NCBI GenBank assembly: GCA_002839765.1
Contig: PGYR01000002.1
Span: 62,001 to 126,000 of the forward strand
DNA from: Ignavibacteriae bacterium HGW-Ignavibacteriae-4
GTDB taxonomy: Bacteria; Bacteroidota; Ignavibacteria; Kapaibacteriales; UBA2268
Length of the DNA stretch: 64,000 nt
Direction of reading: 5' to 3'
Shown here one piece after another: positions 7,463 through 36,004 of the stretch (the first letter of the stretch is position 1; every line of letters starts with the position of its first letter). The notes beneath the pieces were generated by a model. It was given only the letters and a program-made list of their open reading frames with translations. It had not been told where the DNA came from and searched no databases. The translations under genes and the position numbers were made by a program.

Positions 7463-7515
7463 AAACACCCCGTCCTGCTACGCAGTCCACCCCTCTTTTC
7501 AAAAAGAGGGGAATT
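7463..7515 (-). repeat. Dispersed hairpin repeat, copy 1
   Basis: On the minus strand this reads CCCCTCTTTTTGAAAAGAGGGG, then TGGACTGCG, AGCAGGACGGGGTGTTT. It has a perfect 10-bp stem (7490-7499 with 7502-7511). Related copies lie at 30742-30800 and 31338-31405 on the plus strand. This copy sits directly after the stop codon of the 7524-7820 gene and could fold at the end of its mRNA. Confidence 0.7.
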
Positions 7516-7523
7516 CATTACTA

Positions 7524-7820
7524 TCACAGCTCTTTAGCTTTCTCGGCAAAGTATATCAATTTTTCAGAGTATTCAGAAGGGATTTGTACCCATTGCTTCA
7601 TTGGTCTGTTTTTACCTGATGGATCAAACAATTTTGTACCTGTCAGTGACATAGCTTCTTTATGTATTTCAGGATTAGTAAGCTTGAACACCATCTGTTC
7701 TTGGAAGAAACTAAGAAATGCTTTTCCATTATATTTGAAGCATGGTTTACCAAAGAAATTACTGCTCACTGCTCCTTCTATACTTTCACCGGCTTCGTTG
7801 TATTTGTTTAGTGCGTTCAT
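7524..7820 (-). CDS. Small TfoX N-terminal-domain-like protein
   Basis: This 98-residue cytoplasmic protein has GKPCFKYNGKAFLSFF, QEQMVFKL and a C-terminal GKNRPMKQWVQIP followed by a helix. The layout resembles the stand-alone TfoX/Sxy N-terminal domain, with a glycine-phenylalanine core and the R-P-M-K-x-W-V motif. TfoX/Sxy proteins regulate competence genes in proteobacteria, but the many short stand-alone members have no known role. It is followed immediately by a dispersed hairpin repeat. The fold assignment is moderate and the function is open. Confidence 0.55.
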   Translation of the reverse strand: MNALNKYNEAGESIEGAVSSNFFGKPCFKYNGKAFLSFFQEQMVFKLTNPEIHKEAMSLTGTKLFDPSGKNRPMKQWVQIPSEYSEKLIYFAEKAKEL

Positions 7821-7915
7821 ATAAATTCTCTATTTTTTATATAAAAGCAATATAATAATTAATATATTTCATAATTTTCAATCCAAATGTGTTACAACTT
7901 AGAAATCACCGTGAA

Positions 7916-8368
7916 TTATTTTTTAGATTCTTTAACTGGGAAATTACTATAAAAATTAAAGTCTCTATCAACCATTTCCAAAAAGAATTTTTTACTTTTA
8001 CCCATAACTACAACTCCAACGTAGCCTGATGCAGCAAAAAAACTATACCAATGATTAATGAAAATTTTGGTTTCAACTTCGATTATTGGCTTATCATTAC
8101 TAATAGCAATTATAACTGTATTTTCATTAAACAAGTGTGATTTACTCAGTAAATCTGAAATTTCATCTTCGCAACCAACATAATCAAAGAAGAATTTATA
8201 CGAAGGAGTAACTTCATCCCAGTTTATCAAAAAATTCTTCTCATTAAAAATCTCTAACGGAATCTTAGATTTATTTAATTCATTGATAAAATAATCTGGG
8301 GAATCATTTGAAACAACTTTTAAATGCTTAATAATATCTTTTAAAAAACCATTTTTTGAAATATCCAT
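7916..8368 (-). CDS. Hypothetical protein, 150 aa
   Basis: I do not recognise this protein. It has no signal peptide. It is rich in Lys, Asn, Phe and Ile and has a hydrophobic beta-rich core (ENTVIIAISNDKPIIEV, then SFFAASGYVGVVVMGKS), which suggests a small soluble alpha/beta domain. Its style resembles SUKH/Imm-type immunity or knot proteins, but no signature motif is visible. It stands alone between the TfoX-like gene and a repeat-bearing gap, and it looks more AT-rich than the operon to its right, so it may have been acquired recently. Confidence 0.6.
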   Translation of the reverse strand: MDISKNGFLKDIIKHLKVVSNDSPDYFINELNKSKIPLEIFNEKNFLINWDEVTPSYKFFFDYVGCEDEISDLLSKSHLFNENTVIIAISNDKPIIEVETKIFINHWYSFFAASGYVGVVVMGKSKKFFLEMVDRDFNFYSNFPVKESKK

Positions 8369-8433
8369 CTAACTTTTCCTACTCCATTTCAATAATCTTC
8401 ATTATACTTATATATTTGTATCATTTTAACTAT

Positions 8434-8510
8434 CATGTCATCCTTTTCAGAAAATACAACCGAGACTACTTCACCTGGACTCTTCGCTACGCTCTGAGTG
8501 ACACGAAATA
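8434..8510. repeat. Degenerate intergenic repeat
   Basis: The gap 8369-8518 contains TGTCATCC...GACTCTTCGCTACGCTCTGAGTGACA. The outer arms TGTCA and TGACA form a terminal inverted pair, and the inside resembles the GTCATCC...GAAGGATC element at 7320. It looks like a decayed copy of the same repeat class. Confidence 0.4.
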
Positions 8511-8518
8511 ATAGTCTA

Positions 8519-9103
8519 TCACCTAATATCCAATCCATATTTGACCAATAGTCCTTCTAGACCAATTCGGGAGAATATAGCACCCTTTGTTCTGTTTATC
8601 TCGGGGTCTATAGCGTAGTTATTCGCATTCCTAAAGTCAGCTTTACTTAGAGTAGAATGATCGAAAAATGCATCACGCAAATCACAATCATCGAATGAGC
8701 AGCCGATTAATTCTGTATTTACGAACTGAGTATCGTGCATTACACACTTATCGAATTGTGTACCGCCTATTTTCAGATTCCCAAAAGAGCAAGAACTGAG
8801 TATGCACTCCGTAAAGCTAAACGACAATAGGAATTCTCGGCATTTACTGAAATCTATTCCTAATAGCTTGCATTTAGAAAAGCGAACTTCATTAAAAGCT
8901 GTCTTAGTTACATTCGCCAAGCTTAGGTTGCAGTTCACAAATGTACATTCTACGAATGTGGTATCTGCCATATCGGTATTGCTAAAATCACAGTTGATGA
9001 AGCGGCAAAGCTCGAATTTCATCCCCACTAATTTCTGTTTGGAATGTTCTACATTCCTGAATTCTACTTCTTCGTGATAATTAGATTCAGTTATTTCAAC
9101 CAT
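8519..9103 (-). CDS. Pentapeptide repeat protein
   Basis: This 194-residue protein is almost entirely tandem A(D/N)Lxx-type pentapeptides, for example RFINCDFSNTDMADTTF, NCNLSLANVTKTAF, DLRDAFFDHSTLSKADFRNAN. It should fold as a right-handed quadrilateral beta-helix with a short helical C terminus. There is no signal peptide. Some members of this family protect DNA gyrase (Qnr, MfpA); most have no known role. It is the last gene of the DUF2339 operon, two bases after the stop of the four-helix membrane protein, so it may assemble with that membrane complex. I see no evidence for gyrase protection. Confidence 0.88.
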   Translation of the reverse strand: MVEITESNYHEEVEFRNVEHSKQKLVGMKFELCRFINCDFSNTDMADTTFVECTFVNCNLSLANVTKTAFNEVRFSKCKLLGIDFSKCREFLLSFSFTECILSSCSFGNLKIGGTQFDKCVMHDTQFVNTELIGCSFDDCDLRDAFFDHSTLSKADFRNANNYAIDPEINRTKGAIFSRIGLEGLLVKYGLDIR

Positions 9104-9105
9104 TC

Positions 9106-9495
9106 TTAACCCTTAGAAATTTTATAGAATGTCATGCTAATACTAGCGAACATAGACAAAGTGAAAAAGAGCTTTATTAGTATTGTGTTCGAGTGAACAT
9201 CAAAAGGAGAAAGTACAAGCATAACAATACCCAATAGTAATGTAAGCAATGCCGTAGAGACTAGCCCTTTTTTTATGTCATTATAACCTTCTGGGTTTTC
9301 TTCTCTCTTTTTGTTGTATATGGCTCCAAGTATTTTATCTTCTACCGCCATAAGCAAGAAAATAAATGACATTAGAAGTATATAGATTATGTCATTGTCA
9401 ATTACTAGGTCATCTACCCCGATGAATAGAATCCCAAGTATCAAGACAACAAACATTGCCTCTATTATATATCTGATTATTTTGAATAAGTTCAT
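9106..9495 (-). CDS. Small four-helix integral membrane protein
   Basis: This 129-residue protein has four predicted transmembrane helices: roughly residues 9-27, 32-49, 75-95 and 103-122. A short charged loop (EDKILGAIYNKKREENPEG) lies between helices two and three. I do not recognise a family. Its gene starts one base after the stop of the DUF3999-like gene and ends two bases before the pentapeptide gene, so it is firmly part of that operon and probably of the same membrane assembly. Confidence 0.75.
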   Translation of the reverse strand: MNLFKIIRYIIEAMFVVLILGILFIGVDDLVIDNDIIYILLMSFIFLLMAVEDKILGAIYNKKREENPEGYNDIKKGLVSTALLTLLLGIVMLVLSPFDVHSNTILIKLFFTLSMFASISMTFYKISKG

Positions 9496-15604: not shown

Positions 15605-17983
15605 TTACATTCCGTCTCCGCCATCACCGTCAAAGACCGGTTTCTCGCGTTTTTTTGCTTGGTTTATTCTGTAGGCAAATGTTAGGGTAACTTGACCTTT
15701 TCGCCATTGGTAATCACTATTTCGTGAGAATGTCTCGCCATTTACAATAGAGCGTCTTAGTCTAGTACTAAATACATCTTGACCAGACAATGTAAGAGTA
15801 GCATTGTTATCAAGTATATCAGTAGAAAGTCCAAAATCTAACCACCACATACTTAGGTTTTCCCCTTGTGGAGTACCCTCTGGTGCTCGGTAGTTAGCAG
15901 TAATTTGGAAATTATAACTTGAGATTTTTAGTTTAGACGAGAATCTAGTATTCCAACTAAAATATTCTGTATTGAGATTGTAAACGGATTCATTACCAGT
16001 AATAGTTGAGCTATATAAGTTGAAATTGATATTAGTATTCCACCAATCTGTTATGTCATTAGATAAATTAAACTCTACACCATAAGAATTCTGAATACCA
16101 ATATTAGATGGACGTATCTGAGTTATTCCTGTCGTGTCGATGTATGTAACAGATTGAATAATGTCAGTGCCATGTCTGTAATAAACATTAGACAGAATTG
16201 AACCAGTTTCCCAGTTTAATAAATAACCAAGCTCATAAGAGTCTGTATATTCAGGGTTCAAATCTGGATTACCACCCCATATATTTCTAGAATCAGTGAA
16301 GCTAGAAAATGGCATTAAACTACGGAACCAAGGTCTTTGTATCCTAGATGAATAGCTAGCTTGGAGTGAGTTTTGTTCACCTATTTTATAGTTAAAATGT
16401 GCAGATGGGAAAAAATTAATATAATCTCTTTGGTTTGTATAATTGGTACGAAGTAACTCGGACGTTATATCAGAATACTCGGAACGAACTCCTACTTGCC
16501 ATCCAAATTCATCAATTTGATTACCAAGCATAACATAAGCTGCATATATGTTTTCGTAATAAACAAAGTTATTATTGTAGCCATCTAAAAACTCAAATTC
16601 ACCATCTACTTTTTGTTGAACATTATAATCATTGTCAACTTTTCTAAGGTTTGCTTTTGCACCTGTCTCAAATTTACCTTCTTCACTGAATGGATATACA
16701 TAGTCAAGTTGGTAAAGTTGATTTCGTTCAAATTCTAGATTATAACTTTTTTGTTCAGTTTCATCAGTTGTCAAACTGTTAAATTGATTTATTTCTGAGT
16801 TCTCTATATCTTTGTTCTGTTCATATCGACTATCAAATCTTAGGTAATGGTCTTTGTTTCCGTCAAATTTCTTTTCATAAGTTACATTAAGTTCTATATC
16901 ATTTTTCGATTCATTCTCATTATCATCTCTATTTGTGGTTCTGTATAAACTACCATCTGGCAAGTAATCTGAGTAAATAATCTTTGAAAGATTATCACCA
17001 TCTCTAAATCTATAATTCCCAGCGAAAGTTAGAGTGTTATCGTCATCCAAATAGAAGTCTGAGCCAATATTCAAGTTAATCCCTGTGCCACCTCTTTCTC
17101 TATCTAGGTTAGTATTAGTATAGTTATAGGTATCGAATACAGTGAATCTTTGATCTGTGTTCCCAGAACCAGGGCTGTTACGATAGTTTACACCAGCTGA
17201 TCCAAATAAGTTCATAGATTCTGATCTATAATTAGATGAAACTGTAACAGCGTGGTTATCTGGATAACCAGTTCTAAGCTCAAAGTTGCCGTTGTAGCCA
17301 GCTTCTTGCTTTTTCTTCAAAACTATGTTGATAATTCCAACTTCACCTTGTGCATCGTAACGAGCAGATGGATTTGTGATAATTTCTATCTTTTCAATCA
17401 TATCACCCATCAGCTGTCTCAATGATTCTGGGTCATTACTTACCATACCTGATTGCTTTCCATTTAGTAATATTTGAACATTACCTGAGCCCCGAAGTGA
17501 GACATTACCTTCTGGGTCAACGTTCACAGATGGTATATTGTCTAATATTTCAGAGCCGTTTCTACCAATGTTACTCGCATCTTTATTAACATTATAAATT
17601 CGCTTATCAAGTTTGAGTTCCATTATGGATTTTTCTGCTGTTACTAGTACCTCATCTGTCAAAACTGATGATTGTGCAATTTTGATTATGCCTAACTTCA
17701 AATCACTCGATAGATTAATATTATCTAAAACCTTTGGTTCCATTCCAACAGAAGTAATTTTAATATAGTATGTTCCTTCTTTAGCATTGAAATTGAAATT
17801 ACCTCCGACTTTTGTTACTCCGCCTGTTATTATAGATGAATCTTTGGGATTGTGTAAAGCTACAGAAGCACCAATTTGTGGTAATCCTTCGTTATCGATG
17901 ATTGTTCCAGAGATTTTGTAATTAGATTGAGCGTTAAGTGAAAACGTAGTCAGAGTAAGTATAAGAGAGATATATTTTAGCAT
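15605..17983 (-). CDS. TonB-dependent-receptor-like outer membrane barrel protein
   Basis: This 792-residue protein has a signal peptide ending near ...TFSLNAQ. A carboxypeptidase-like regulatory domain follows at about 22-105 (SGTIIDNEGLPQIGASVALH), then a plug domain at about 115-225 (NGSEILDNIPSVNVDPEGNVSLRG, VQILLNGKQSG, ITNPSARYDAQGEVGIINIVL), and a large barrel of the OMP_b-brl_3 type. It belongs to the Bacteroidota group of TonB-family proteins; the substrate is unknown. The C terminus is unusual, a short Gly-Asp tail (FDGDGGDGM) after the last strand rather than a terminal aromatic residue. A methyltransferase gene follows four bases later. Confidence 0.88.
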   Translation of the reverse strand: MLKYISLILTLTTFSLNAQSNYKISGTIIDNEGLPQIGASVALHNPKDSSIITGGVTKVGGNFNFNAKEGTYYIKITSVGMEPKVLDNINLSSDLKLGIIKIAQSSVLTDEVLVTAEKSIMELKLDKRIYNVNKDASNIGRNGSEILDNIPSVNVDPEGNVSLRGSGNVQILLNGKQSGMVSNDPESLRQLMGDMIEKIEIITNPSARYDAQGEVGIINIVLKKKQEAGYNGNFELRTGYPDNHAVTVSSNYRSESMNLFGSAGVNYRNSPGSGNTDQRFTVFDTYNYTNTNLDRERGGTGINLNIGSDFYLDDDNTLTFAGNYRFRDGDNLSKIIYSDYLPDGSLYRTTNRDDNENESKNDIELNVTYEKKFDGNKDHYLRFDSRYEQNKDIENSEINQFNSLTTDETEQKSYNLEFERNQLYQLDYVYPFSEEGKFETGAKANLRKVDNDYNVQQKVDGEFEFLDGYNNNFVYYENIYAAYVMLGNQIDEFGWQVGVRSEYSDITSELLRTNYTNQRDYINFFPSAHFNYKIGEQNSLQASYSSRIQRPWFRSLMPFSSFTDSRNIWGGNPDLNPEYTDSYELGYLLNWETGSILSNVYYRHGTDIIQSVTYIDTTGITQIRPSNIGIQNSYGVEFNLSNDITDWWNTNINFNLYSSTITGNESVYNLNTEYFSWNTRFSSKLKISSYNFQITANYRAPEGTPQGENLSMWWLDFGLSTDILDNNATLTLSGQDVFSTRLRRSIVNGETFSRNSDYQWRKGQVTLTFAYRINQAKKREKPVFDGDGGDGM

Positions 17984-18142: not shown

Positions 18143-20557
18143 CTAAGGAGTAACACCAACGGTAAAGTAAATACTTCTTCTCATTGCAGGTATAATTCCT
18201 GGGCCTGGGTAGCCAGTTGCTCGGCGAGTGAAGTATGAATTATCAAGCAGATTATTGATTCCAGCCTCTAATTTGAATAAATCGAATTTGTAACTCATAG
18301 ATAAATCAAATACATCATAGCTAGGGATAATGCCAGAGATACTCCCAGGAGCAGAGATAGCATTAGTAGCATCACTGAAATGCTCCATTGTATAAGAATA
18401 AGTAAGTGCCGCCGAGAACCCTTCTTCCTTGTAGCTCATACCAGTTCTTAGTATAATGGGTGGAGTATATTCAACTTTGTTATTATTGTAAGCCACTTCT
18501 TTACTATCTAAGAATATCGCATTAGTATAAGAACCATTCACAAAGTAATTCAACTCGTAACTATTCGATAAACCTAAAAGAGTATTCAGATTCATTTCAG
18601 TGAATAGTTCAACTCCAACACTTCTGCTATCTGAGATATTTGTTTTCAGTACATAAGATGTATAAGTCTCCTCATCTTGTTTCAGCACAGTTCCAATTTT
18701 ATCATAATAGTAGAGATAGAAGAAGTTTGCATCGAAGTATAACAGTTTCCCTACTGTTCCTCGTATCCCTATATCTCCCGAATATCCATTCTCGTCTCTA
18801 AGGTCTGAGTCTATTCTCATATTTGGGTTAACGACTCTCATATCGTTGAATGTAACAGCTCTGTAGTTTTGAGATATATTAATATAACTTTCTATATTTT
18901 CATCTAGATTATACCCTGCACTTATTCCCAATAACAAGAATTCTCTCGTATTACTTCTGTCCTCTGTTATAATCTCATTCTTAATAATATTACCCGCCAA
19001 ATCACGTACTATGTTAGAGTAATATCCCTCAGACCCAGTGGTTATTCTCTCGTATCGAACACCTGGAGTGATAGATAAATTAGAGCTGAGTTTGAACAAA
19101 TTCTCTGTAAATAAGGCATAATTCATACTTGGATTTGTATAATCGTTTAGTTTCACATCATTGTTGAAATCGAAGTTTGCATCAGATTGGTTATTACCAT
19201 ACCCTTGGCTTTGCAAAGTACGACCGTTATATACTCGGAATCCAGTCAATAGTGTTGAAGGCAAACTCTCGACAAGGTCATAATTATATAATAATCTGGT
19301 CTCGTTACCTAAGTTTTGGAATGTTCCTTTTATCAGATTTCGATCTTCCATTGGGTCTGCTCTGTCTGGTCTAATCAGATAACCCAATGCATCTCTTTCG
19401 GCGTCAAGATAAAATATTCGAGAGTTCAGTTTTATATTATTGTTTAAATTATAATCTAAAACAGCAGCCAATATGTCCCAATTAACAGAGAACCAATTTC
19501 TATCTCTTACTGATTGTTCGGGATTGTTAGCAAACATATCATCTGTTAATCCTCCAGATTGTTGAGCTAGATAATTCATGTGAGTGAACTCTGCAGTTAT
19601 GCTGAAATCACTCGTTATCTGATAAGCATTTTTTACGAAGAAAGTAAGAGCGTTGTAGTTTGAGTTTGGACGGAAATCATTACCTTGCTTGTATTGCAGA
19701 AAACTGTAATAATTCATGTTCTCGTAAGTTCCACCGATACTATTGAATGAACTATAATTGTCATAGCTCGACATGGACTGTCTTGATATAATATCAACTG
19801 GTTTTACTTTAGAGCCATCTTTCAATTTGAAATTCAGAAAGCCACCGAACTGAGTTCCGTATTGTAAGGAAGCTGCTCCACGAACTAATTCGATTTTTTC
19901 GAGAGCTTCCATTGGAGGTGTGTAATAACTCTCTGGGTAGCCAAGTGCGTCAGCGGCTATATCGTAGCCATTTTGGCGAGTGTTGAAATTCGAAACTCTG
20001 TTTGGACTAAGCCCACGACCACCGATATTTAGTTGAATACCAGAAGCATCATTTTCCCAAATATTTAATCCAGAGAATTTTGAGAATACTTGACGTGCAT
20101 TGTTAGAGGCTAGATTTGCTGTTAGATTGTCTAAGTATAATGATTCAGATTTACGACCTGCATAGATAGCTGCACCGTCCACTGGTAACATATTGGATAT
20201 ACCGAATCTATTTGTTTTTGTGTCTTCTATCAAGACATCATCGAATTTTGTAACCATTGTGTCAATAGTCAAATCCACTTCTTTCGTCTTATCAACTGAG
20301 ATAGTCTTAGGATATCCAGATACATCATCTGTCGATGCAATCAGAGTATAGTCACCTTGGCTCAAATCTATCGAATAGCGACCATTCAAATCCGCTAACA
20401 TATACTTATTAATCTCACGAACAAATACCCTAGCAGAAGCTACTGGCTTACCACTATTATTATAATACACAGTCCCCGAAAGGTTCACCGAAGTATTAGC
20501 TTTCGCAATGAAAAAACTTAGTGTTATTATAATTACTATGTAGTTTAAAAATTTCAA
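18143..20557 (-). CDS. FecA-like TonB-dependent receptor
   Basis: This 804-residue outer-membrane receptor has a signal peptide (MKFLNYIVIIITLSFFIAKA), a carboxypeptidase-like regulatory domain (about 24-105), a plug (NARQVFSKFSGLNIWEND, LNIGGRGLSPNRVSNF, ALEKIELVRGAASLQYG) and a 22-strand-type barrel ending SIYFTVGVTP. The plug resembles FecA-type ferric citrate and siderophore receptors. It is the last gene of the DUF4856-DUF4856-imelysin-HTTM-receptor operon, its start overlapping the HTTM stop by four bases. That context points to TonB-driven uptake of an iron or other metal complex. The ligand cannot be deduced from sequence alone. Confidence 0.9.
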   Translation of the reverse strand: MKFLNYIVIIITLSFFIAKANTSVNLSGTVYYNNSGKPVASARVFVREINKYMLADLNGRYSIDLSQGDYTLIASTDDVSGYPKTISVDKTKEVDLTIDTMVTKFDDVLIEDTKTNRFGISNMLPVDGAAIYAGRKSESLYLDNLTANLASNNARQVFSKFSGLNIWENDASGIQLNIGGRGLSPNRVSNFNTRQNGYDIAADALGYPESYYTPPMEALEKIELVRGAASLQYGTQFGGFLNFKLKDGSKVKPVDIISRQSMSSYDNYSSFNSIGGTYENMNYYSFLQYKQGNDFRPNSNYNALTFFVKNAYQITSDFSITAEFTHMNYLAQQSGGLTDDMFANNPEQSVRDRNWFSVNWDILAAVLDYNLNNNIKLNSRIFYLDAERDALGYLIRPDRADPMEDRNLIKGTFQNLGNETRLLYNYDLVESLPSTLLTGFRVYNGRTLQSQGYGNNQSDANFDFNNDVKLNDYTNPSMNYALFTENLFKLSSNLSITPGVRYERITTGSEGYYSNIVRDLAGNIIKNEIITEDRSNTREFLLLGISAGYNLDENIESYINISQNYRAVTFNDMRVVNPNMRIDSDLRDENGYSGDIGIRGTVGKLLYFDANFFYLYYYDKIGTVLKQDEETYTSYVLKTNISDSRSVGVELFTEMNLNTLLGLSNSYELNYFVNGSYTNAIFLDSKEVAYNNNKVEYTPPIILRTGMSYKEEGFSAALTYSYTMEHFSDATNAISAPGSISGIIPSYDVFDLSMSYKFDLFKLEAGINNLLDNSYFTRRATGYPGPGIIPAMRRSIYFTVGVTP

Positions 20558-21897
20558 TTATTCGGTAATATCCAAGTATCTAAATCATCGTGATATGACT
20601 TTTTCGTCAAATCAACTTTATCGTTTATATATCTTTTGCTGAAATCTCCGTTCAGCTTAACAAAAGAATCGGCGTATATCTCAACATTAGTAATGCCTTT
20701 CGAGGCAAAATCCTCTTCGATTATCTTCACATATTGAAGTATCAAATCTGGTTGAGTTGACATTTGCTTCTCTTGATTGGGAGTTAAATAGTCAGAATTA
20801 ACTATTTCTATTTTTTTGTTAGTGTCTTTATCAACCACAGTGAAAAATACAGTGCCTGCCTTTTCCATCAACATAACTCGCCAAGAGAACCTATATCCTT
20901 CTTCTTTCCAGAACAAATCACCACTATATAACAAAAACCTTAGCGGAATTGCCAACTGGATAATTGTAAAAATAAGGATAGATGTACTAACAACTGTTTT
21001 CATAATAGGTCTGTAACTATGTGTAGTTACAACATTAGTCTTATACCCAAACCATTTCTTTAGTCGATTAACTACATTAATTTGGAATGACTTATCGAAG
21101 AATATAGTTGTCAGGGCTATCATTACATACGGGAATACACCAATATTGAATAGGGCAGAGGTAGAAAGATGAAAGACGATAACTAAAAAATAAGCAACCT
21201 TTCTTGTCTTTGGGTAGATTAGGAAGAAAACTATGAACAAATCATAAATAGCCCCAAACCAACTGAAAAAATAGGCTGTAAATTGGAGCTTTAATAGTCC
21301 TCCAATTATTGGCAAATGTGAGTTAGCTGGCAGCCAAATAGACAAAGGCATAGCATCAATCAGCCAATCATAATTCAGCTTCGCTATACCCGCGAAAACA
21401 TAAACCACAGCAACTTGAAACTTGATTATAAGAATAGTCCAGTTAGGAATTGATTCGGTCTCTCCTTTCTGAAGTGCATCTATCGAAAAGCAATTACCAG
21501 CCGGCAAAAAGACCATAATAAATGCTATCAATGAAACGAAGTAATAGTGATTTAGATAGTATGTGATATCTATCAGTTCTATGTAGAGAAACGAAAGTAG
21601 AAAGGTAATGGCTGCGAATCGGTACTTATAGCCAATAGTTATTAGAATACTACTTAGCAGCAAAGTCCCGAATAATAAATAAATCCCAATCTCGCCGGGA
21701 TTTTGTACCCAATGGAAATAAGGATATTTGAAGTAATGTTCCGGTTGAACGAAGAATTCTGTCACCCAACCGTTTGCTATGTATCTAATAGTAGAAAAGG
21801 TCATTAGCAAACCGAAAACTATTCGGAAGAACGCTAATGGTTCGGGACTAACTTCTTTGAAAAGAGTTTCCCTGATTTGGGTATTAATCACCGTCAT
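20554..21897 (-). CDS. HTTM-domain (vitamin K-dependent gamma-carboxylase-like) membrane protein
   Basis: This 447-residue protein has about ten hydrophobic helices and the HTTM family blocks: EPLAFFRIVFGLLM, TEFFVQPEHYFKYPYFHWV, YYLNHYYFVSLIAFIMVFLPAG and VVYVFAGIAKLNYDWL. HTTM is the membrane domain of vitamin K-dependent gamma-glutamyl carboxylase. Bacterial HTTM proteins are mostly uncharacterised, and none of the motifs visible here proves carboxylase activity. The C terminus is soluble. It overlaps the imelysin gene by 14 bases and the receptor gene by four, so it is an obligate operon partner. One possibility is that it modifies the lipoproteins encoded upstream. Confidence 0.87.
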   Translation of the reverse strand: MTVINTQIRETLFKEVSPEPLAFFRIVFGLLMTFSTIRYIANGWVTEFFVQPEHYFKYPYFHWVQNPGEIGIYLLFGTLLLSSILITIGYKYRFAAITFLLSFLYIELIDITYYLNHYYFVSLIAFIMVFLPAGNCFSIDALQKGETESIPNWTILIIKFQVAVVYVFAGIAKLNYDWLIDAMPLSIWLPANSHLPIIGGLLKLQFTAYFFSWFGAIYDLFIVFFLIYPKTRKVAYFLVIVFHLSTSALFNIGVFPYVMIALTTIFFDKSFQINVVNRLKKWFGYKTNVVTTHSYRPIMKTVVSTSILIFTIIQLAIPLRFLLYSGDLFWKEEGYRFSWRVMLMEKAGTVFFTVVDKDTNKKIEIVNSDYLTPNQEKQMSTQPDLILQYVKIIEEDFASKGITNVEIYADSFVKLNGDFSKRYINDKVDLTKKSYHDDLDTWILPNN

Positions 21898-22975
21898 TAT
21901 CTTGGTAATTAATAAGTATTCCCATTGCAGATACCATGTCCGTCTTTAGCAATACAACACTTTCTTGCATATTTTTATAAAGTGCTTCAATCTTTTCTTT
22001 TTCTGTGGGAAGTTCTAGTGATTTTCTGAAAGGAATATCCATTTTATTCAGTAAACCGATAGTTTCGTCAAATTCCTCAAGTATAACATCTGCTAGCAAA
22101 GCGTCTCCTCTTGTCACTGATAGTTCGCTCAGATATTCGTATAGATTATCTGTTTTTGTTAGATCATTATTCTCGGGTCCAGTGATTATCATTCTATATG
22201 ATTGCAGATTGAATCCTAAGATTCTAGACGAATTCATTGAATAAGGTGCCTCGAAGTGATATGGTAATACATCGCTCGATGATTTTCCTAAAGGGAAACC
22301 GACTTTGGCTCTTTTAGCTAACTCGTAATCTTTTACAAATTCATTGATTAACAATGACAGTGAGCTGCCAGCATCATTCCCCGTTTTAGAAATGAAAACA
22401 TCTCTATATGATTGCCATCCATTTCTAACATAATCAATATTAGTTTTTATATCTTTTATTATATCTTCTAAGTATTGCAATACTTTTGTATCTGTAAATA
22501 CAGATTCTTGTGTATTGCTTTCTACATTGAATAGTAAATAGTCCAATGCAGGAAAACCCTTTGCCTTAAAGTTAGAAGAAGTAACAAGCGAATAAGTTCC
22601 TGATGCGATATTATCTTTTATTCTAATTGTATCAGTCGGGAAAGTATTCAGAGTTTGTCTTAATACTACATCTTCAGCAGGTCCGAAACCATAAGCAGAA
22701 CAATATTGCCAGCTATTCCGAAGGTCTGAAAAAGCTTGACGAACTTTATTATATCTTTGTTCAGAGTATTCTAGTTTCAGTTCAGCAAATCTCTCAATCA
22801 ATGTATTTGATTTTAGGTATAAATCTTCAAAAGCAGGTATTATCAAATTATCAGCATAATTTGTTAAAAGTGCTTTTTTATCAATATCTATTTTTGGGTT
22901 GCCAGTATTCTCGTTGCTGCATGAAAGCATAAATACAGCTATGAATAATACATAAATCACTTTCTTAAAGATCAT
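21884..22975 (-). CDS. Imelysin-family lipoprotein
   Basis: This 363-residue lipoprotein has a signal peptide with lipobox ending at Cys19 (FMLSC). The imelysin fold, two helical bundles, is indicated by FEDLYLKSNTLIERF, SWQYCSAYGFGPAEDVVLRQ and SSNFKAKGFPALDYLLF. Imelysin-like proteins (IrpA, EfeO/EfeM relatives) act in iron uptake in the periplasm or at the surface. The classical G-x-H-x-x-E motif is replaced by Gly140-Phe-Pro-Ala-Leu-Asp145, so the usual metal-binding His is absent, as in the imelysin-like variants of this group. The gene overlaps DUF4856 upstream by 11 bases and HTTM downstream by 14. Confidence 0.87.
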   Translation of the reverse strand: MIFKKVIYVLFIAVFMLSCSNENTGNPKIDIDKKALLTNYADNLIIPAFEDLYLKSNTLIERFAELKLEYSEQRYNKVRQAFSDLRNSWQYCSAYGFGPAEDVVLRQTLNTFPTDTIRIKDNIASGTYSLVTSSNFKAKGFPALDYLLFNVESNTQESVFTDTKVLQYLEDIIKDIKTNIDYVRNGWQSYRDVFISKTGNDAGSSLSLLINEFVKDYELAKRAKVGFPLGKSSSDVLPYHFEAPYSMNSSRILGFNLQSYRMIITGPENNDLTKTDNLYEYLSELSVTRGDALLADVILEEFDETIGLLNKMDIPFRKSLELPTEKEKIEALYKNMQESVVLLKTDMVSAMGILINYQDNDGD

Positions 22976-24062
22976 TCTGAACGCCTTCTAGTTTATAAGC
23001 ATTAACTAGTATTTCTATTGCCTTGTCAATGTCTGTACTTGTGGTATTCCAGAAGTTTGTACCAATTTCTGCAAGTGCGTTTTCATAGTGGAAGCCATTA
23101 CTTTGTGGGTTAAACTGTATTGACCAAAGTAGAATCCAAGCTCCTGTCAGATTATGATGCTTAAGTGCAACATCTTCAAAGTCTGCTTTTGCAATTTTCA
23201 AATAATGAATTGCTGTTGAGGCAAGTACTAATTCCCAATTTTTTCTAATACTATTTATAGCTTCGTATTTTCCAGTGCTATCGTTGTTGTTAATTGCGGC
23301 CCTACCTTTCAGAAATCCTTCTTTCATTAATAACTTATTTGTGTAAAGTAAATCATTTCTATCGTCTGATAGTTTTGCTACATACTTTATATCATTATTT
23401 AATTTAGGAAAATCTAAAGTAGCCCCAAAGTATCCAAAGGCTTGATCCCAGTTATGTTGCATCTGAGTTCCTTTTCCCTCGATTATTGTTTTATTATCTA
23501 TATTTTTGCCAATCTTATCATCAGAAGTAAAAACTTGGGCGACTTGATAATAAAATAATGCTCCCCATAAACCTTTCTCAATCATTTGAAGGTATTCTTT
23601 ACCAACTGAATCCACTAGAAAAGTCTGTGACTTATCTTTTGTTACTAGAATTCCTTTCTTATTATTCGCTGCTGTTCTGGTAGTAGAGGCGTTATTAATA
23701 TCTCCAAAATAGAATTCTATAAATGCTGTTCTCAGTTGGTCTGTTTCTAAATACAAACTTTCCTCACTCGAGTTTAATGACGAGTTAACGAAAGGTGTGC
23801 CGTTATTTTTGAACATACTATTTAGTACGCCAGCACTTATAGGCACTTCATTTTTAATAGCATTCGTTATCAAACTTTTCATTTCTTCTAGCATTTCCAT
23901 CTGAATCAATTGCTTCGAATAGTCAACATTGTCGAAGTTGTAGGTCTCAGGTATTGTATATGTCTTAGGATCGGGGTCGGGGTCAACTTTAGTCGATTTA
24001 TCATCACTGCATGATGTAAATAACATAGTTAGAACCGAAAGAAACAAAATCATTTTTTTCAT
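22965..24062 (-). CDS. DUF4856 lipoprotein, second copy
   Basis: This 365-residue lipoprotein has a signal peptide with lipobox at Cys18 (MLFTSCSDDKST) and the DUF4856 body: YNFDNVDYSKQLIQMEMLEEM, MQHNWDQAFGYFGATLDFP, GRAAINNND, the W-x-L-V-x-A helix and a C-terminal FWNTTSTDIDKAIEIL. DUF4856 proteins are typically encoded beside imelysin and TonB receptors in Bacteroidota. Function is unknown, and the conserved Asp, His and Asn residues could bind metal. It is paralogous to 24230-25303 across its length. It overlaps imelysin by 11 bases. A terminator-like hairpin lies between the two paralogues. Confidence 0.88.
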   Translation of the reverse strand: MKKMILFLSVLTMLFTSCSDDKSTKVDPDPDPKTYTIPETYNFDNVDYSKQLIQMEMLEEMKSLITNAIKNEVPISAGVLNSMFKNNGTPFVNSSLNSSEESLYLETDQLRTAFIEFYFGDINNASTTRTAANNKKGILVTKDKSQTFLVDSVGKEYLQMIEKGLWGALFYYQVAQVFTSDDKIGKNIDNKTIIEGKGTQMQHNWDQAFGYFGATLDFPKLNNDIKYVAKLSDDRNDLLYTNKLLMKEGFLKGRAAINNNDSTGKYEAINSIRKNWELVLASTAIHYLKIAKADFEDVALKHHNLTGAWILLWSIQFNPQSNGFHYENALAEIGTNFWNTTSTDIDKAIEILVNAYKLEGVQNDL

Positions 24063-24169
24063 GATGAACCTTTTGCTTTTTATTATTTTAATTATCTACC
24101 AATCTACAATATAACATAATTAAGATAATTATTTTATGATTCTTGTGTACTTTGTGTGGTTATAAAAAA

Positions 24170-24200
24170 AAGAGGACTTTGGTCTCCCAATAGGCCTCTT
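24170..24200 (-). terminator. Hairpin with T-run between the DUF4856 paralogues
   Basis: On the minus strand, AAGAGG pairs with CCTCTT (24195-24200 with 24170-24175) around a 19-base loop, followed by eight T residues. It lies within the operon, after the first DUF4856 gene. Partial termination here would make the first lipoprotein in excess over the downstream uptake genes. The stem is only six base pairs and the loop is long, so it may be weak. Confidence 0.6.
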
Positions 24201-24229
24201 CCTCTAATATCGTATAAATGTATAATAGA

Positions 24230-25303
24230 TTATAAATCATTAGCTATGTTTTGTAAATTATAGCCATTGACCAATATTTCTCTTGCACCGTCAATATTTT
24301 CTAACTGGATATTCCAGAAGTTCTCACCTAATCTATTAAGAGCATCTTGGTAGTATGTTCCATTTTTATCTGGACTGAATTGAACAGACCAAAGGAATCC
24401 GAAACACTCCGAAAGAGTATGAGACCTGATAGCATCATCAGTATAATTTGCTTTTGCAACATTTAGGTAATGAATAGCGGTAGTTACGAAAGTTAGTTCC
24501 CAGCCTTTTCTAATTTCTTTTACAGCTTCCCACTTAGCTTCGTCGTCATTGTTGTTAATAGCAATTCGTCCTTTTAAATATCCATTTTTCATAAGCATAT
24601 CATTCAACCCAACTAAAGCATCTCTTCCATTTGCATATTTGGCAACAAAGCTGATACCTTCTATTTCTTTTGGAAATTTTTTAGTTGCACCGAAATAACC
24701 GAAAGCCTCGTCCCAGTGGTGTTGCATCGCTGTACCTTCGCCTTCTATTACAGTCGTATTATCAACAGACGCACCGATTTTATCTTCACTTGTATAACCA
24801 ACGACTTGGTGAAGCATCAACGCACCCATTAAGCACTTTTCCAAAAATTCTCCATAATCCCATCCCTTTGAGTTTACTATGTAAGATTTTGTTCCATCGG
24901 CAGAAGTTACTAGTCCACCTTCACCTGATTTAGCTTTAGTAGTAGTGTTAATTCGCCCCATATCTGTAATCAGATTCGTAATAAATATAACTCTACTAGG
25001 GTCAATTTTTGAGTAAATATCTTTGCCGCTTTCATTCAATTCAGCTGATGTGAATGGATTACCCTCATTTTTTAGCATTGCATTAAGTTTCTCTATGTCA
25101 ATAGCTGTACCATTTGCTTTTGCTTCTTGTATAACGGCATCCATTTCTTTTATCATTTCCAATCTTGTTGTTTGACCTGAATAATCTACGTTGTCAAAAC
25201 TGTAAACTGATAAGTCTTTTGTGTCCGGATTAGTAGTACTATCATCGCTGCATGAGATAAAAAATAGACTCATTGTCGTTATTAGTAAAATTACTCTCTT
25301 CAT
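24230..25303 (-). CDS. DUF4856 lipoprotein, first copy
   Basis: This 357-residue lipoprotein has a signal peptide with lipobox at Cys18 (SLFFISCSDDSTTNP). It shares the DUF4856 blocks with its neighbour: YSFDNVDYSGQTTRLEMIKEM, TAMQHHWDEAFGYFGATKKFP, GRIAINNNDDEAKWEAV, W-E-L-T-F-V-T-T-A-I-H-Y. It is probably anchored in the outer membrane. It heads the five-gene uptake operon and is the gene nearest to the candidate promoter at 25350-25357. The two copies have diverged considerably, which suggests different ligands or partners rather than a recent duplication. Confidence 0.88.
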   Translation of the reverse strand: MKRVILLITTMSLFFISCSDDSTTNPDTKDLSVYSFDNVDYSGQTTRLEMIKEMDAVIQEAKANGTAIDIEKLNAMLKNEGNPFTSAELNESGKDIYSKIDPSRVIFITNLITDMGRINTTTKAKSGEGGLVTSADGTKSYIVNSKGWDYGEFLEKCLMGALMLHQVVGYTSEDKIGASVDNTTVIEGEGTAMQHHWDEAFGYFGATKKFPKEIEGISFVAKYANGRDALVGLNDMLMKNGYLKGRIAINNNDDEAKWEAVKEIRKGWELTFVTTAIHYLNVAKANYTDDAIRSHTLSECFGFLWSVQFSPDKNGTYYQDALNRLGENFWNIQLENIDGAREILVNGYNLQNIANDL

Positions 25304-25349
25304 TGTACTTTCCTATTACTATTTCTATTTGTTGTTTAAATTATAATGA

Positions 25350-25357
25350 CAAACATA
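25350..25357 (-). promoter_or_regulatory. Candidate -7 promoter element for the uptake operon
   Basis: On the minus strand the sequence reads TATGTTTG, a perfect Bacteroidota -7 element (TAnnTTTG), 46 bases before the DUF4856 start. The position 19 bases further upstream, where TTG is expected, reads TAGT. A weak -33 element is common at regulated promoters, so an activator or iron-dependent control is possible. I see no clear Fur box. Confidence 0.4.
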
Positions 25358-25540
25358 AAAAAGCTATTTAACTAAGACTATTTCAATCCTATTTCTGTGT
25401 TCTATGTGTGGGTATCTATTTGATTGTCTATAAAAAGAGTGAAATGTATTAAATTTTGTTGTGTGTACCCGATGTGGTTTATAATAAAAGTATTATTTGA
25501 TAGTTTAGTAAGAAACGAATTGACATTATTGAGAAAAGAT

Positions 25541-28387
25541 ATGAAATACATAATTAGAATTGCTTTACTAGCACTTTTTACAATTAGTTTAACTGCCAAA
25601 GAAGAGGCAAAAGAGTCAGATTTCCTGACTAATCCTAGGCAACTAATATTCGAAGGTGCACGCTCAGGAGAAGGGTATTTCTCACAAGACGGTAGATACC
25701 TAATATTCCAAAGTGAGAGAATAGACGACAATCCATTTTATCAAATCTTTATGCTAGATTTTGAGACTGGTGATATAAATCAAATATCGAACGGAACTGG
25801 GAAGACCACTTGTTCTTTCATCCAAAAAGATAATAAAGGCAAAGTTCTTTATAGCTCTACTCATCTAGACCCAAAAGCAAAATCAAAACAAAAAGAAGAA
25901 TTCGACTTACGTGCTTCTAGCACAAAGCGTAGATACGCTTGGGACTATGACGAAACAATGGACATATTCTCTGCTGATTTTGATGGCAAAAACCCAAAAC
26001 AGTTAACCAAAGCGAAAGGGTATGATGCGGAAGGTTCTTACTCACCAGACGGCAAGAAGATATTATTCGCTTCTAATCGAGATGCTTACAGCAGAAAATT
26101 AAATGATAAAGAACAAAAGCAATTAGAATTCGACCCATCTTACTTCTGTGAATTATATATAATGGACGCTGATGGTAGCAATGTAAAGCGATTAACTGAT
26201 AACCCCGGTTATGATGGTGGTCCATTTTTCTCACCAGATGGTAAGAAAGTTATTTGGAGAAGATTCACTCCAGATGGTCACCAAGCTGATGTTTACACTA
26301 TGAATTTGGATGGTTCAGACCTAAGACAAATAACTAGTTTCGAATCTATGTCATGGGCTCCTTATTTCCATCCAAGTGGTGAGTATATAGCTTTTGCATC
26401 TAACAAATACGGGTATGGTAATTTCGAGGTTTTCCTAGTAGATAAATTGGGTGAGAAAGAACCGGTCAGAGTTACAACCACCGATGGATTCGACGGATTA
26501 CCTGTGTTTCACCCAGATGGTGATAAACTAGTATGGACTAGCGGCAGAACTACAAATGGTAAAGCACAGCTATTCATGGCTAATTGGAATCACAAAGCTG
26601 CTCTCGAAGCCTTGAAAAATGCTCCAAAAAGAGAAAACAAAAAAAAAGTAATTAATACTGGTGCAATCAAATTAGATGAACTAGAAGCAAAAGTAAAGTA
26701 CTTGAGTAGCGATGAACTTGAAGGAAGATTCACTGGTAGTGAGGGTATTCGGTTAGCTGCCGATTTTATAGTTTCAGATTTGAAACAATTTGAATTAAAG
26801 CCGCTAAAGGGATTCAACGATCTTCGCGTCCCTTTTGACTATACCTCAGATATTGATATTTCGAAAACTGACAATTATCTATATACTATTAGTACTTCTG
26901 GTAAAGAGAACAGGATTGAAGTCGGTTCAGACTTCATGCCTCTAGCATCAACTGATAATGGTAATTTCGGTGGTAATCTAATCTTCGCTGGATTCGGAAT
27001 TAAAACATCTGATGATTCTGAATTTAAGATGAATTCTTATGCTGACTTAGATGTAGATGGTAAGTTTTTAATGGTGCTTGACGATATGCCTTCTAATCTC
27101 GATGAGGAGCAACAAAAAGCATTAACGCGCTATTCTTCACGTATGTACAAGACCCTAACTGCTCGTGAACTTGGTGCAATTGGTATCATCTTCATCTCCG
27201 AAAGAGCAAAAATCACTAAACCGAATGATGTTCGTATGAATATCAAATCTGGAATGTTCTTATCAGAAATAACTGAAGCTGCCGCTGGTAAATTACTAGA
27301 CACAGATTTCACCAAAATCAAAGATAAAGTCGATAATTATAATCCACATGAAAAAAGTTCATTCGACCCAAAGATACAAATAGAAGGTAACTATTCTGTT
27401 GAGAAAGTAAGATCAACGGACAATAATATAATTGGGGTTGTCTATGCTGATAATTCTGATGAATATGTAGTTATTGGTGGACACTATGACCACCTTGGTT
27501 ATGGGGAAGGGGGTTCATTAGCTGATGGCGATGCTATACATAATATACATAATGGAGCAGATGATAATGCCTCTGGTACTACCGTAGTGATGGAGCTAGC
27601 TGAGTATTATGCTCAACTGAAAAAAGATAATCCAAAAGCTATTAAAAAGAATCTTGTATTTGCATTTTGGTCTGGTGAAGAACTAGGTTTACTTGGCTCT
27701 TCTGAATTCGTAGATCAAGCTGAGGAAAAGGGATTAAAATTCCATTCATACCTCAATTATGATATGGTTGGTATGCTGAAAGATAATAAACTATCTATGC
27801 AGGGTGCTGGTAGTGCTGAGAATTGGAGGAAATTAATAGAAAAGAAAAACATAATTGCTGGTTTCAATATCGGTGTTTCTGATGACCCATATTTACCGAC
27901 TGACGCTACATCATTCTATAAAAAAGGTGTTCCAGTAATTGCGTTTTTCACTAATCTTCATGACAATTACCACCGCCCAAGTGATGATTTTGAGAATCTG
28001 AATATAGATGGTATGGAAAAAATAGCAAAGTTTTCTACTAAGATAATCGACGAAATACTATCTGATAAAACTGATATAACTTATAAGAAAGTAGAAATGG
28101 CTGCACAAACTAATGTACGTGGATTCGCCGTATATCTTGGTACTATTCCCGATTACGTAGCCGAAGTAGAGGGAGTAAAGCTTACGGGTGTGCGTAGTGG
28201 TGGCCCAGCAGACGAAGCTGGTCTACAGGCTGATGATATTATCGTTCACCTAGGTGATAAATCTATCAAGAATATATATGATTACACAAATGTGCTAGCT
28301 GATTTGAAAGCAGGTTTGAAATATAAAATTGATGTAAAAAGAGGCGATGAAATTATTAGCTTAACTATTATTCCGGGTAGCAAGTAA
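25541..28387 (+). CDS. Exported M28 zinc peptidase with N-terminal TolB-like propeller and C-terminal PDZ domain
   Basis: This 948-residue protein has a signal peptide (MKYIIRIALLALFTISLTAK). A TolB/PD40-type propeller follows at about 25-370, with repeats such as YSPDGKKILFASNRD, FSPDGKKVIWRRF and FHPSGEYIAFASN. The M28 peptidase domain at about 390-830 has the di-zinc ligands in order: GGHYDHLGYG (near 648), GADDNASGT, FWSGEELGLLG, NYDMVGM and HDNYHRPSDD (His near 811). A PDZ domain (GGPADEAGLQADDIIVHLG) ends the protein. M28 peptidases are aminopeptidases or carboxypeptidases. A longer TTG-initiated frame from 25424 lacks a proper signal, so ATG 25541 is preferred. Confidence 0.92.
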   Translation: MKYIIRIALLALFTISLTAKEEAKESDFLTNPRQLIFEGARSGEGYFSQDGRYLIFQSERIDDNPFYQIFMLDFETGDINQISNGTGKTTCSFIQKDNKGKVLYSSTHLDPKAKSKQKEEFDLRASSTKRRYAWDYDETMDIFSADFDGKNPKQLTKAKGYDAEGSYSPDGKKILFASNRDAYSRKLNDKEQKQLEFDPSYFCELYIMDADGSNVKRLTDNPGYDGGPFFSPDGKKVIWRRFTPDGHQADVYTMNLDGSDLRQITSFESMSWAPYFHPSGEYIAFASNKYGYGNFEVFLVDKLGEKEPVRVTTTDGFDGLPVFHPDGDKLVWTSGRTTNGKAQLFMANWNHKAALEALKNAPKRENKKKVINTGAIKLDELEAKVKYLSSDELEGRFTGSEGIRLAADFIVSDLKQFELKPLKGFNDLRVPFDYTSDIDISKTDNYLYTISTSGKENRIEVGSDFMPLASTDNGNFGGNLIFAGFGIKTSDDSEFKMNSYADLDVDGKFLMVLDDMPSNLDEEQQKALTRYSSRMYKTLTARELGAIGIIFISERAKITKPNDVRMNIKSGMFLSEITEAAAGKLLDTDFTKIKDKVDNYNPHEKSSFDPKIQIEGNYSVEKVRSTDNNIIGVVYADNSDEYVVIGGHYDHLGYGEGGSLADGDAIHNIHNGADDNASGTTVVMELAEYYAQLKKDNPKAIKKNLVFAFWSGEELGLLGSSEFVDQAEEKGLKFHSYLNYDMVGMLKDNKLSMQGAGSAENWRKLIEKKNIIAGFNIGVSDDPYLPTDATSFYKKGVPVIAFFTNLHDNYHRPSDDFENLNIDGMEKIAKFSTKIIDEILSDKTDITYKKVEMAAQTNVRGFAVYLGTIPDYVAEVEGVKLTGVRSGGPADEAGLQADDIIVHLGDKSIKNIYDYTNVLADLKAGLKYKIDVKRGDEIISLTIIPGSK

Positions 28388-34835: not shown

Positions 34836-36004
34836 TGAAATCTACTATTTTGGTACTTACTTTTACTACTTTACTTTTCTCTGTTTTTCAGCTTAATGCT
34901 TTAGAAAGAAGCATAATAATTCCAGAGTTTATCAGATTACCCCAAGATAGCGTTGTCGCAGATAAGCTATTGAATTCACTAGAATCATTTCTAAAGCAGA
35001 AAGAAGCCCCAAACAACTCGAACACTCTTGTTAATCAGGATTATTTACTAGAAACATCTTTATTACTAGATGAAATAAAAGGAATTGAGAAAAGTTCTAA
35101 ATATAAAGATGATAACTTTTATAAATGTTACTTGAGCAGCTTAGTAAAGCTTAATGAAAAGCAGTATATAGTACAGTTCTCATATTTGGGAATTAGAGAG
35201 TCTAACCCACTACTAAAGGCAACTATCTCTTTAATTGCAACTGAGGTGGGTAATGAATTTCATTTTCATTCACCACTAAAATTCAACACATCAGCTTGGT
35301 CAAAAGCAGAAAAAGGGCTTATGACTATTTTTCATAAACCAAGTTTTGACTTATCAATTGCCAAAGATTATGTTGATTATACTAATAAATATGATAGAAT
35401 ATTAGGCGTAGAGGAAAAGCCAACAATTCTATATTGTGCAAGTAATTTCAATGAAGTTTTGAAGCTAGTAGGAGTCGATTACAAATCAGATTATAGTGGT
35501 GTTAATTACAATACAACAATGGCAGTTGAGCGAGACACAACGCTCATTGTAAATGGTTTACTTGCCTCGGAAGTAATCAAATTCGACCCGCATGACCATT
35601 GGCATAGCCGATTGCGAGCAGTGCTTGCTCCCAACGATACTTACAAACCAATTGATGAAGGATGTGCGTTCCTATTCGGAGGGAGTTGGGGATATAGTTG
35701 GGAAGATATAAAAAGGCGATTTTCTGATTATGTGAAGAATAATAATAACCCCGATTGGTTGAAACTATATGAAGATAGATTAGACATAGGTGATGAGCAA
35801 TACAAGCCATTGAATATGGATTATATAATTAATGCTTTCATAGTAAAAGAGCTTTACAAAGATGGTGATTTCACTAAAGTAATGAAATTACTAAGTATCG
35901 GTAGAAATCAAACTAATGAAAAATATTTCGAAGTATTAGAAGAAACTATGGGAATCAATCGAAAGAATTTCAATGAAGAAGTAGGGAAGTTAGTTAAAAA
36001 CTAA
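34835..36004 (+). CDS. Exported gluzincin-like protein with HDxxH and downstream DEG
   Basis: This 389-residue protein has a signal peptide (MKSTILVLTFTTLLFSVFQLNA). Near the middle it has FDPHDHWHSRLRAVL with His253-Asp254-x-x-His257, followed 18 residues later by IDEGCAFLFGGSWGYSWE with Glu275. This is the layout of gluzincin metallopeptidases (HExxH with a third Glu ligand), except that the catalytic Glu is Asp. It could be a weakly active or inactive zinc peptidase-like domain. I cannot name the family with certainty. The 3' end overlaps the next, convergent gene by 11 bases. Confidence 0.6.
   Translation: MKSTILVLTFTTLLFSVFQLNALERSIIIPEFIRLPQDSVVADKLLNSLESFLKQKEAPNNSNTLVNQDYLLETSLLLDEIKGIEKSSKYKDDNFYKCYLSSLVKLNEKQYIVQFSYLGIRESNPLLKATISLIATEVGNEFHFHSPLKFNTSAWSKAEKGLMTIFHKPSFDLSIAKDYVDYTNKYDRILGVEEKPTILYCASNFNEVLKLVGVDYKSDYSGVNYNTTMAVERDTTLIVNGLLASEVIKFDPHDHWHSRLRAVLAPNDTYKPIDEGCAFLFGGSWGYSWEDIKRRFSDYVKNNNNPDWLKLYEDRLDIGDEQYKPLNMDYIINAFIVKELYKDGDFTKVMKLLSIGRNQTNEKYFEVLEETMGINRKNFNEEVGKLVKN

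Follow-up and report, generated by a model that had tools for sequence, protein, structure and literature searches.

Among the closest known counterparts of the membrane enzyme discussed here is human GGCX, the vitamin K-dependent gamma-carboxylase (VKGC), in which K218 takes a proton from the hydroquinone form of vitamin K and the substrate glutamate is coordinated by N159, H160 and Y395 (PMC12589487). A bacterial VKGC homologue is mentioned for Leptospira (PMC4555120), and imelysins of the IPPA type are described as sitting in Fur-regulated operons such as PA4370-PA4373 (Xu et al. 2011, PMC3143127). In Riemerella anatipestifer, an expression table lists a TonB-dependent receptor (RAYM_09779), a vitamin K-dependent gamma-carboxylase (RAYM_09784), a putative imelysin lipoprotein (RAYM_09789) and a hypothetical protein (RAYM_09794), with ratios of iron-restricted to iron-replete wild type (WT-Fe/WT+Fe) of 2.11, 2.64, 3.07 and 2.41, respectively (PMC5609570). 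Here we compare these systems with a five-gene operon in a 64,000-nucleotide stretch of Ignavibacteriae bacterium HGW-Ignavibacteriae-4 (contig PGYR01000002.1, positions 62,001 to 126,000; hereafter the window), which encodes a VKGC homologue together with two DUF4856 lipoproteins, an imelysin and a TonB-dependent receptor. The reading that we prefer, to which we give slightly less than an even chance, takes the genes for a Bacteroidota operon for iron acquisition under iron regulation: built round an imelysin-type module, it would include a VKGC homologue with its catalytic residues intact that carboxylates one or a few glutamates of a partner protein. This reading is based on gene content, gene order, the catalytic and glutamate-pocket residues and the predicted GGCX fold, all presented below, and on an iron response taken from the literature.

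The operon runs on the minus strand from 25303 to 18143 in the order DUF4856a, DUF4856b, imelysin, VKGC homologue and TonB receptor, as given by the open reading frame (ORF) list and Pfam. A gap of 167 nt separates the two DUF4856 genes, and genes 2–5 overlap by 11, 14 and 4 nt in gene order, the receptor starting at a TTG within the TTGA that it shares with the VKGC gene. An earlier account drawn from the letters alone (the sequence-only reading) had proposed five genes, the last four overlapping, with two DUF4856 lipoproteins and one imelysin lipoprotein; the ORF coordinates and the Pfam scores (cut-off for DUF4856, 22.3 bits) agree with it. Its description of the fourth product as an HTTM membrane protein was correct but incomplete, because beside HTTM (PF05090, 258 bits) the protein carries the VKGC lumenal domain (PF22777, 173 bits), which had been overlooked. 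Residues 13–443 align to human GGCX (phmmer, E 8e-35). The AlphaFold2 model has a predicted local distance difference test (pLDDT) score of 90.3, and in a Foldseek search with it GGCX structures fill ranks 1–16 (best E 6e-21, TMq 0.83). This gene encodes a VKGC homologue, and more than an HTTM protein.

We examined the active site in two sets of sequences: 89 VKGC homologues longer than 400 aa from a phylum sample of 395 genomes, the window included, and the VKGCs of 80 named loci, which are the best 80 of at least 571 confirmed matches and are biased toward operon-type VKGCs. The two sets have two loci in common. The equivalents of human N159, H160, K218, W223, G259, F286 and F299 are invariant in 89/89 homologues, and N159, H160, K218, W223, F286 and F299 are kept in all of the best 80 named loci. 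The F294 equivalent is kept in 85 of the 89. The position of Y395 is more variable, with Tyr in 53, His in 22 and Phe in 14 of the 89, and Tyr in 73 and Phe in 7 of the best 80; R436 is not conserved. Since the catalytic and pocket residues are invariant, the VKGC homologue is likely an active enzyme. The sequence-only reading had made its proposal depend on carboxylase active-site residues in this protein, and these are indeed present.

Table 1. Genes of the operon in the window, in gene order.
Feature	Position	Strand	Properties
DUF4856 lipoprotein a	24230..25303	minus	357 aa; lipobox Cys18; conserved H295xxxE299; Pfam DUF4856 122 bits
DUF4856 lipoprotein b	22965..24062	minus	365 aa; Pfam DUF4856 85 bits
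Imelysin-like (M75) lipoprotein, nearest IPPA/PA4372 type	21884..22975	minus	363 aa; Pfam Peptidase_M75 90 bits
VKGC/GGCX homologue (HTTM + lumenal domain)	20554..21897	minus	447 aa; K173, H117, N116 = human K218, H160, N159
TonB-dependent receptor	18143..20557	minus	804 aa; TTG start; N-terminal CarbopepD_reg_2 domain

The association of these genes extends across the phylum. PF22777 occurs in 82 of the 395 genomes, PF16148 in 58 and both in 53. At 52 of the 96 VKGC places found, Pfam detects a DUF4856 gene in the same orientation no more than 8 kb upstream. A simple ORF rule served for gene calling and yielded an ORF of 200 aa or more at 94 places; the two that gave none (L119 and L127) have DUF4856 adjoining VKGC by Pfam, and a 175-aa piece in L169 was left out. 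With iterated profiles, 61 of the 94 called VKGC genes, from 14 families, are preceded by both DUF4856 and imelysin and followed by a TonB receptor, 67 have imelysin and receptor beside them, and 24 have none of the three partners; several of the 33 incomplete cases sit at contig ends (e.g. L116, L131, L151). All four genes are present in 72 of the best 80 named loci, which by title include Pontibacter, Hymenobacter, Mucilaginibacter, Aquimarina, Flavobacterium psychrophilum, Spirosoma and Fodinibius. The belief voiced in the sequence-only reading that such clusters recur in Bacteroidota is borne out by these counts, with gene order conserved. A tree built by a quick method from 134 rows (40 of the 80 named loci and the phylum-sample rows of at least 380 aa) places the operon-linked VKGCs on one branch of 111 rows, 106 of them operon, with a Shimodaira–Hasegawa-like approximate likelihood ratio test (SH-aLRT) support of 99. 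Five rows labelled as having other neighbours fall within this branch; the remaining VKGCs with other neighbours make up two branches apart from it (21 rows) and one that stands alone. The operon VKGCs make up essentially one clade. No description of the operon as a system was found in the open-licence literature searched.

Some genomes carry a second VKGC paralogue with neither imelysin nor DUF4856 beside it (L117, L122, L126, L134, L135, L140-L143 and others), which has neighbours of similar size across loci and forms its own branch in the tree. In L122 it lies directly after RibF (riboflavin kinase/FAD synthetase, by Pfam) and before an apparent seryl-tRNA synthetase, identified by eye. Outside the phylum, plasmid p1 of the alphaproteobacterium Paracoccus albus (L270) encodes a full-length VKGC/HTTM protein at 7476-9344, adjoining a divergent DUF393 gene.

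The two DUF4856 proteins of the window share 46% identity, and DUF4856a is 16–31% identical to its counterparts in other genomes. A single DUF4856 gene is the rule in the complete units of the phylum sample (59 of 61); the window and L076 have a pair. The pair is also present in 3/3 genomes of the same genus, so the doubling looks lineage-specific. Glu299 is found in 135 of 138 VKGC-linked DUF4856 proteins and in 3 of 5 unlinked ones, and His295 in 125 of 138 and 1 of 5, respectively, the unlinked set being tiny and distant. Because H295xxxE299 is better kept near VKGC, Glu299 is, weakly, the first candidate for a substrate residue. The lipobox pattern was recognised in 128 of the 138 DUF4856 proteins and in 103 of 143 imelysins; at least two acidic residues occur in the five positions after the lipobox Cys in 81 of these DUF4856 proteins versus 34 of these imelysins. 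Such acidic residues are a surface-export signal in Bacteroidota, which suggests that DUF4856 may be surface exposed.

The AlphaFold2 model of DUF4856 (27-row alignment) has a pLDDT of 84.3 and no match in the PDB at E ≤0.001 by Foldseek. VIA-align gave a best Z of 7.1, to catenin-like bundles, which is within the chance level for helical bundles, and in a profile comparison the match between DUF4856 and imelysin is confined to the signal-peptide region. Two types of DUF4856 can be told apart in alignment columns 301-360, one with an HxWDEAxGY stretch and one without (families f2, f7, f9 and f42). DUF4856 genes also occur in genomes with no VKGC match (L155, L172-L175), one of them in the window's own family (G006).

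The imelysin of the window has GFPALD (G140-F-P142-A-L-D145) where the ICMP/IrpA-type imelysins have GxHxxE. A His at position 142 is seen in only 1 of the 143 operon imelysins, and position 145 is Asp in 113 and Glu in 17. Its nearest relatives appear to be of the IPPA/PA4372 type: the protein has Pro142 at the place of the motif His, it matches M75 and 3pf0, and it ends in DGD, as do 140 of the 143 operon imelysins. The motif Glu of the IPPA-type GxxxxE is Asp in the window. The use of DGD as a mark of the IPPA type is an observation of this analysis. The annotated loci of Sulfitobacter and Azospirillum have genes labelled imelysin and di-heme oxidoreductase ahead of an imelysin of this type, and DUF1513 after it; in Phaeobacter and on a Pseudomonas plasmid, the gene immediately upstream of such an imelysin is annotated as a c-type cytochrome. 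These four, of six proteobacterial imelysins compared, were read in annotated records, and none of the four has an annotated VKGC within 5 kb. The Bacteroidota unit thus resembles a proteobacterial imelysin operon with VKGC in the place of the redox enzyme, by analogy and not by homology. Asn211 and Lys344 are invariant in 143/143 operon imelysins and vary in six proteobacterial relatives, marking an operon-specific site.

The receptor contains the TonB receptor barrel, plug and CarbopepD_reg_2 domains of Pfam. The sequence-only reading was therefore right about a TonB receptor, and its FecA-like label is weak: the curated FecA family scores 74 bits (cut-off 1100), and TonB-siderophor 92.5 bits (cut-off 223.5). 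A second outer-membrane receptor-type protein (OMP_b-brl_3, 345 bits) is encoded at 15605-17983 on the same strand, 159 nt beyond the operon; it lies outside the conserved unit.

Going by order and names, we infer that RAYM_09779-09794 of Riemerella is the same operon as that of the window and that RAYM_09794 is a putative DUF4856 protein. The metal-uptake theme of the sequence-only reading is in keeping with the imelysin, the receptor and the published rise of this apparently identical cluster under iron restriction (PMC5609570), and the operon likely serves iron acquisition. The word ‘carboxylase’ was not found in the main text of three other R. anatipestifer reports (two on CH-1 and a second study of Fur), nor in that of a paper on iron in E. 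anophelis, a Bizionia regulator paper or a T. maritimum genome paper. Upstream of the operon, in 25304-25560, no inverted repeats were found at the settings used, and an alignment of the same-genus upstream regions contains conserved blocks with no recognisable operator. The promoter scan gave 37 sites against 32.4 in shuffled sequences, and the terminator scan 4 against 3.4. The best promoter-like match of the scanned region (11/12) lies at 24229-24257 on the minus strand, at the end of DUF4856a and before DUF4856b. Genes 2–5 might have a putative promoter of their own, going by a consensus match only.

From these elements, a mechanism can be proposed. The TonB receptor would import a ferric complex, and the DUF4856 and imelysin lipoproteins would capture iron or pass it on. 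The VKGC homologue would lie in the inner membrane with its active site toward the periplasm, an orientation assumed by homology, and, with menaquinol, O2 and CO2 as reactants, would carboxylate a conserved glutamate of a partner or a small number of them. Our best guess for the substrate is DUF4856, for example at Glu299 in the HxxxE helix, where the modification would give a stronger metal ligand. Iron as the ligand, carboxylation as the reaction and DUF4856 as the substrate are all inferred. Carboxylation of a partner protein is plausible, at somewhat under even probability. The model of the sequence-only reading, in which the HTTM protein modifies Glu residues of the lipoproteins, likewise stands as a hypothesis, since VKOR, most of the propeptide-binding region and a Glu-rich region in a partner, all parts of the animal GGCX system, are missing here. 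We further hypothesized a bacterial vitamin K system for iron, in which a menaquinol-driven GGCX homologue would install gamma-carboxyglutamate (Gla) in surface or periplasmic lipoproteins as iron ligands, without a vitamin K epoxide reductase (VKOR) cycle or propeptide; this extended proposal is distinctly more doubtful.

As for the cofactors, it is plausible that menaquinone and O2 are available to the enzyme, because MenA and cytochrome c oxidase subunit II score above the cut-off in the host genome; the heme o synthase match is one bit below it. A candidate for MenD was rejected as a match to acetolactate synthase. Of four MenB matches, all below the cut-off, the two best were typed and are a better fit to other enoyl-CoA hydratases. 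The host genome also encodes a borderline MqnA/D-like PF02621 protein (L257; 28.5 bits, cut-off 26).

A number of observations weigh against the carboxylation of a partner protein for iron uptake, beginning with the enzyme. Human K217 and the C99-C450 pair are not conserved in the aligned VKGC homologues, and the C-terminus of the window protein corresponds to human residue ~502 of 758, with most of the propeptide-binding region missing. As the protein stops at this point, animal-type propeptide recognition is probably absent. The missing region would also suit a VKGC homologue that has no catalysis and acts as a membrane scaffold only, which we regard as very improbable, given that the catalytic Lys and the pocket residues are invariant in both sequence sets described above. 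Of the three operon proteins that were compared with other genomes, VKGC moreover shows the highest conservation (40–48% identity to the window, versus 27–34% for imelysin and 16–31% for DUF4856a).

Substrate and cofactor searches add to the difficulties of carboxylation. The five operon proteins contain no Glu-rich cluster, with maxima of 4 to 8 Glu per 40 residues versus 3 to 9 in 34 other ORFs of the window, and no Glu-rich (Gla) substrate domain was found among them. In the imelysin, E218 and E242 seemed to set the operon proteins apart from four paralogues outside the operon in a conservation comparison. A VKGC-specific Glu was rejected here, as Glu242 occurs in 136 of the 143 but also in 5 of 6 proteobacterial imelysins, and position 218 is not always Glu (116 of the 143, the others having Asp in 25 cases and Gln in 2). 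Neither MenD nor MqnC was found in the host genome, nor was VKOR by profile search. VKOR and VKGC are not associated in the phylum sample, occurring together in 18 of 82 VKGC genomes versus 19.1 expected (Fisher p 0.88). Because VKOR was not found in the genome and is independent of VKGC across the sample, the animal-type vitamin K cycle is probably not part of this system.

The lack of a Glu-rich substrate and of a VKOR link would fit a VKGC homologue that is a menaquinol-dependent oxygenase or redox enzyme and carboxylates no protein, with quinol and O2 altering the iron ligand or the redox state of iron. Such an enzyme could be likened to the cytochrome-type enzyme beside imelysin in proteobacterial operons, two of the four annotated loci having a di-heme oxidoreductase before imelysin and the other two a c-type cytochrome. 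The Leptospira VKGC is also said to lack protein carboxylation, but its catalytic Lys is reportedly replaced, unlike that of the operon VKGCs. Furthermore, Asn159 and His160, which in human GGCX coordinate the side chain of the substrate Glu (PMC12589487), are invariant and not obviously needed by a pure quinol oxygenase. We consider this alternative unlikely, while giving it more weight than either a scaffold or a non-iron cargo.

The iron part of the preferred reading, an iron-acquisition operon, meets its own counter-evidence. In the thermofluor tests of Xu et al., two imelysin-like proteins showed no binding of haem or ferric ion (PMC3143127). For the receptor, phmmer gave no relative of solved structure at E ≤1e-5, and its siderophore-family scores are sub-threshold. 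These findings would fit a module that takes up a non-iron cargo (a different metal, haem or some organic ligand), with the enzyme modifying the ligand or a protein for it, a possibility made improbable by the rise of the Riemerella cluster in iron restriction (PMC5609570). That response remains without fur (2.70-3.07; PMC5609570), so Fur control in Riemerella is weak. Nor does the operon have a Fur box of the Riemerella type (consensus from PMC5609570); the single match in the window, with 3 mismatches, is at 35084.

The analysis connects one VKGC clade, whose active site is intact, with three partner genes and, by way of a published table, with iron-dependent expression. Together, the partner genes and the iron condition narrow the search for the modification to a few possible substrates and one state of growth. 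If carboxylation is true, iron nutrition in bacteria would draw on vitamin K chemistry with no VKOR cycle of the animal kind, giving bacterial VKGC a physiological role and Gla a role with iron.

Compared with human GGCX, the window protein shares the HTTM and lumenal domains, the equivalents of Lys218, His160, Asn159, Trp223, Phe286 and Phe299, and the predicted fold. It differs by lacking Lys217, the C99-C450 pair and most of the propeptide-binding region, and its setting differs in that no VKOR was found in the host genome and no Gla-domain-like stretch in the operon proteins. The Leptospira protein is alike in being a bacterial VKGC homologue. The proteobacterial IPPA-type operons share an imelysin with C-terminal DGD, an iron theme and an adjoining redox-type gene; their partners are another imelysin, an EfeB/di-heme oxidoreductase-type or cytochrome gene and often DUF1513, whereas those of the Bacteroidota unit are DUF4856, VKGC and a TonB receptor. 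The Riemerella cluster appears as a table entry that puts forward no function for the carboxylase or the imelysin, and its likeness to the operon lies in having receptor, carboxylase, imelysin lipoprotein and hypothetical protein in that order, with an iron response (PMC5609570).

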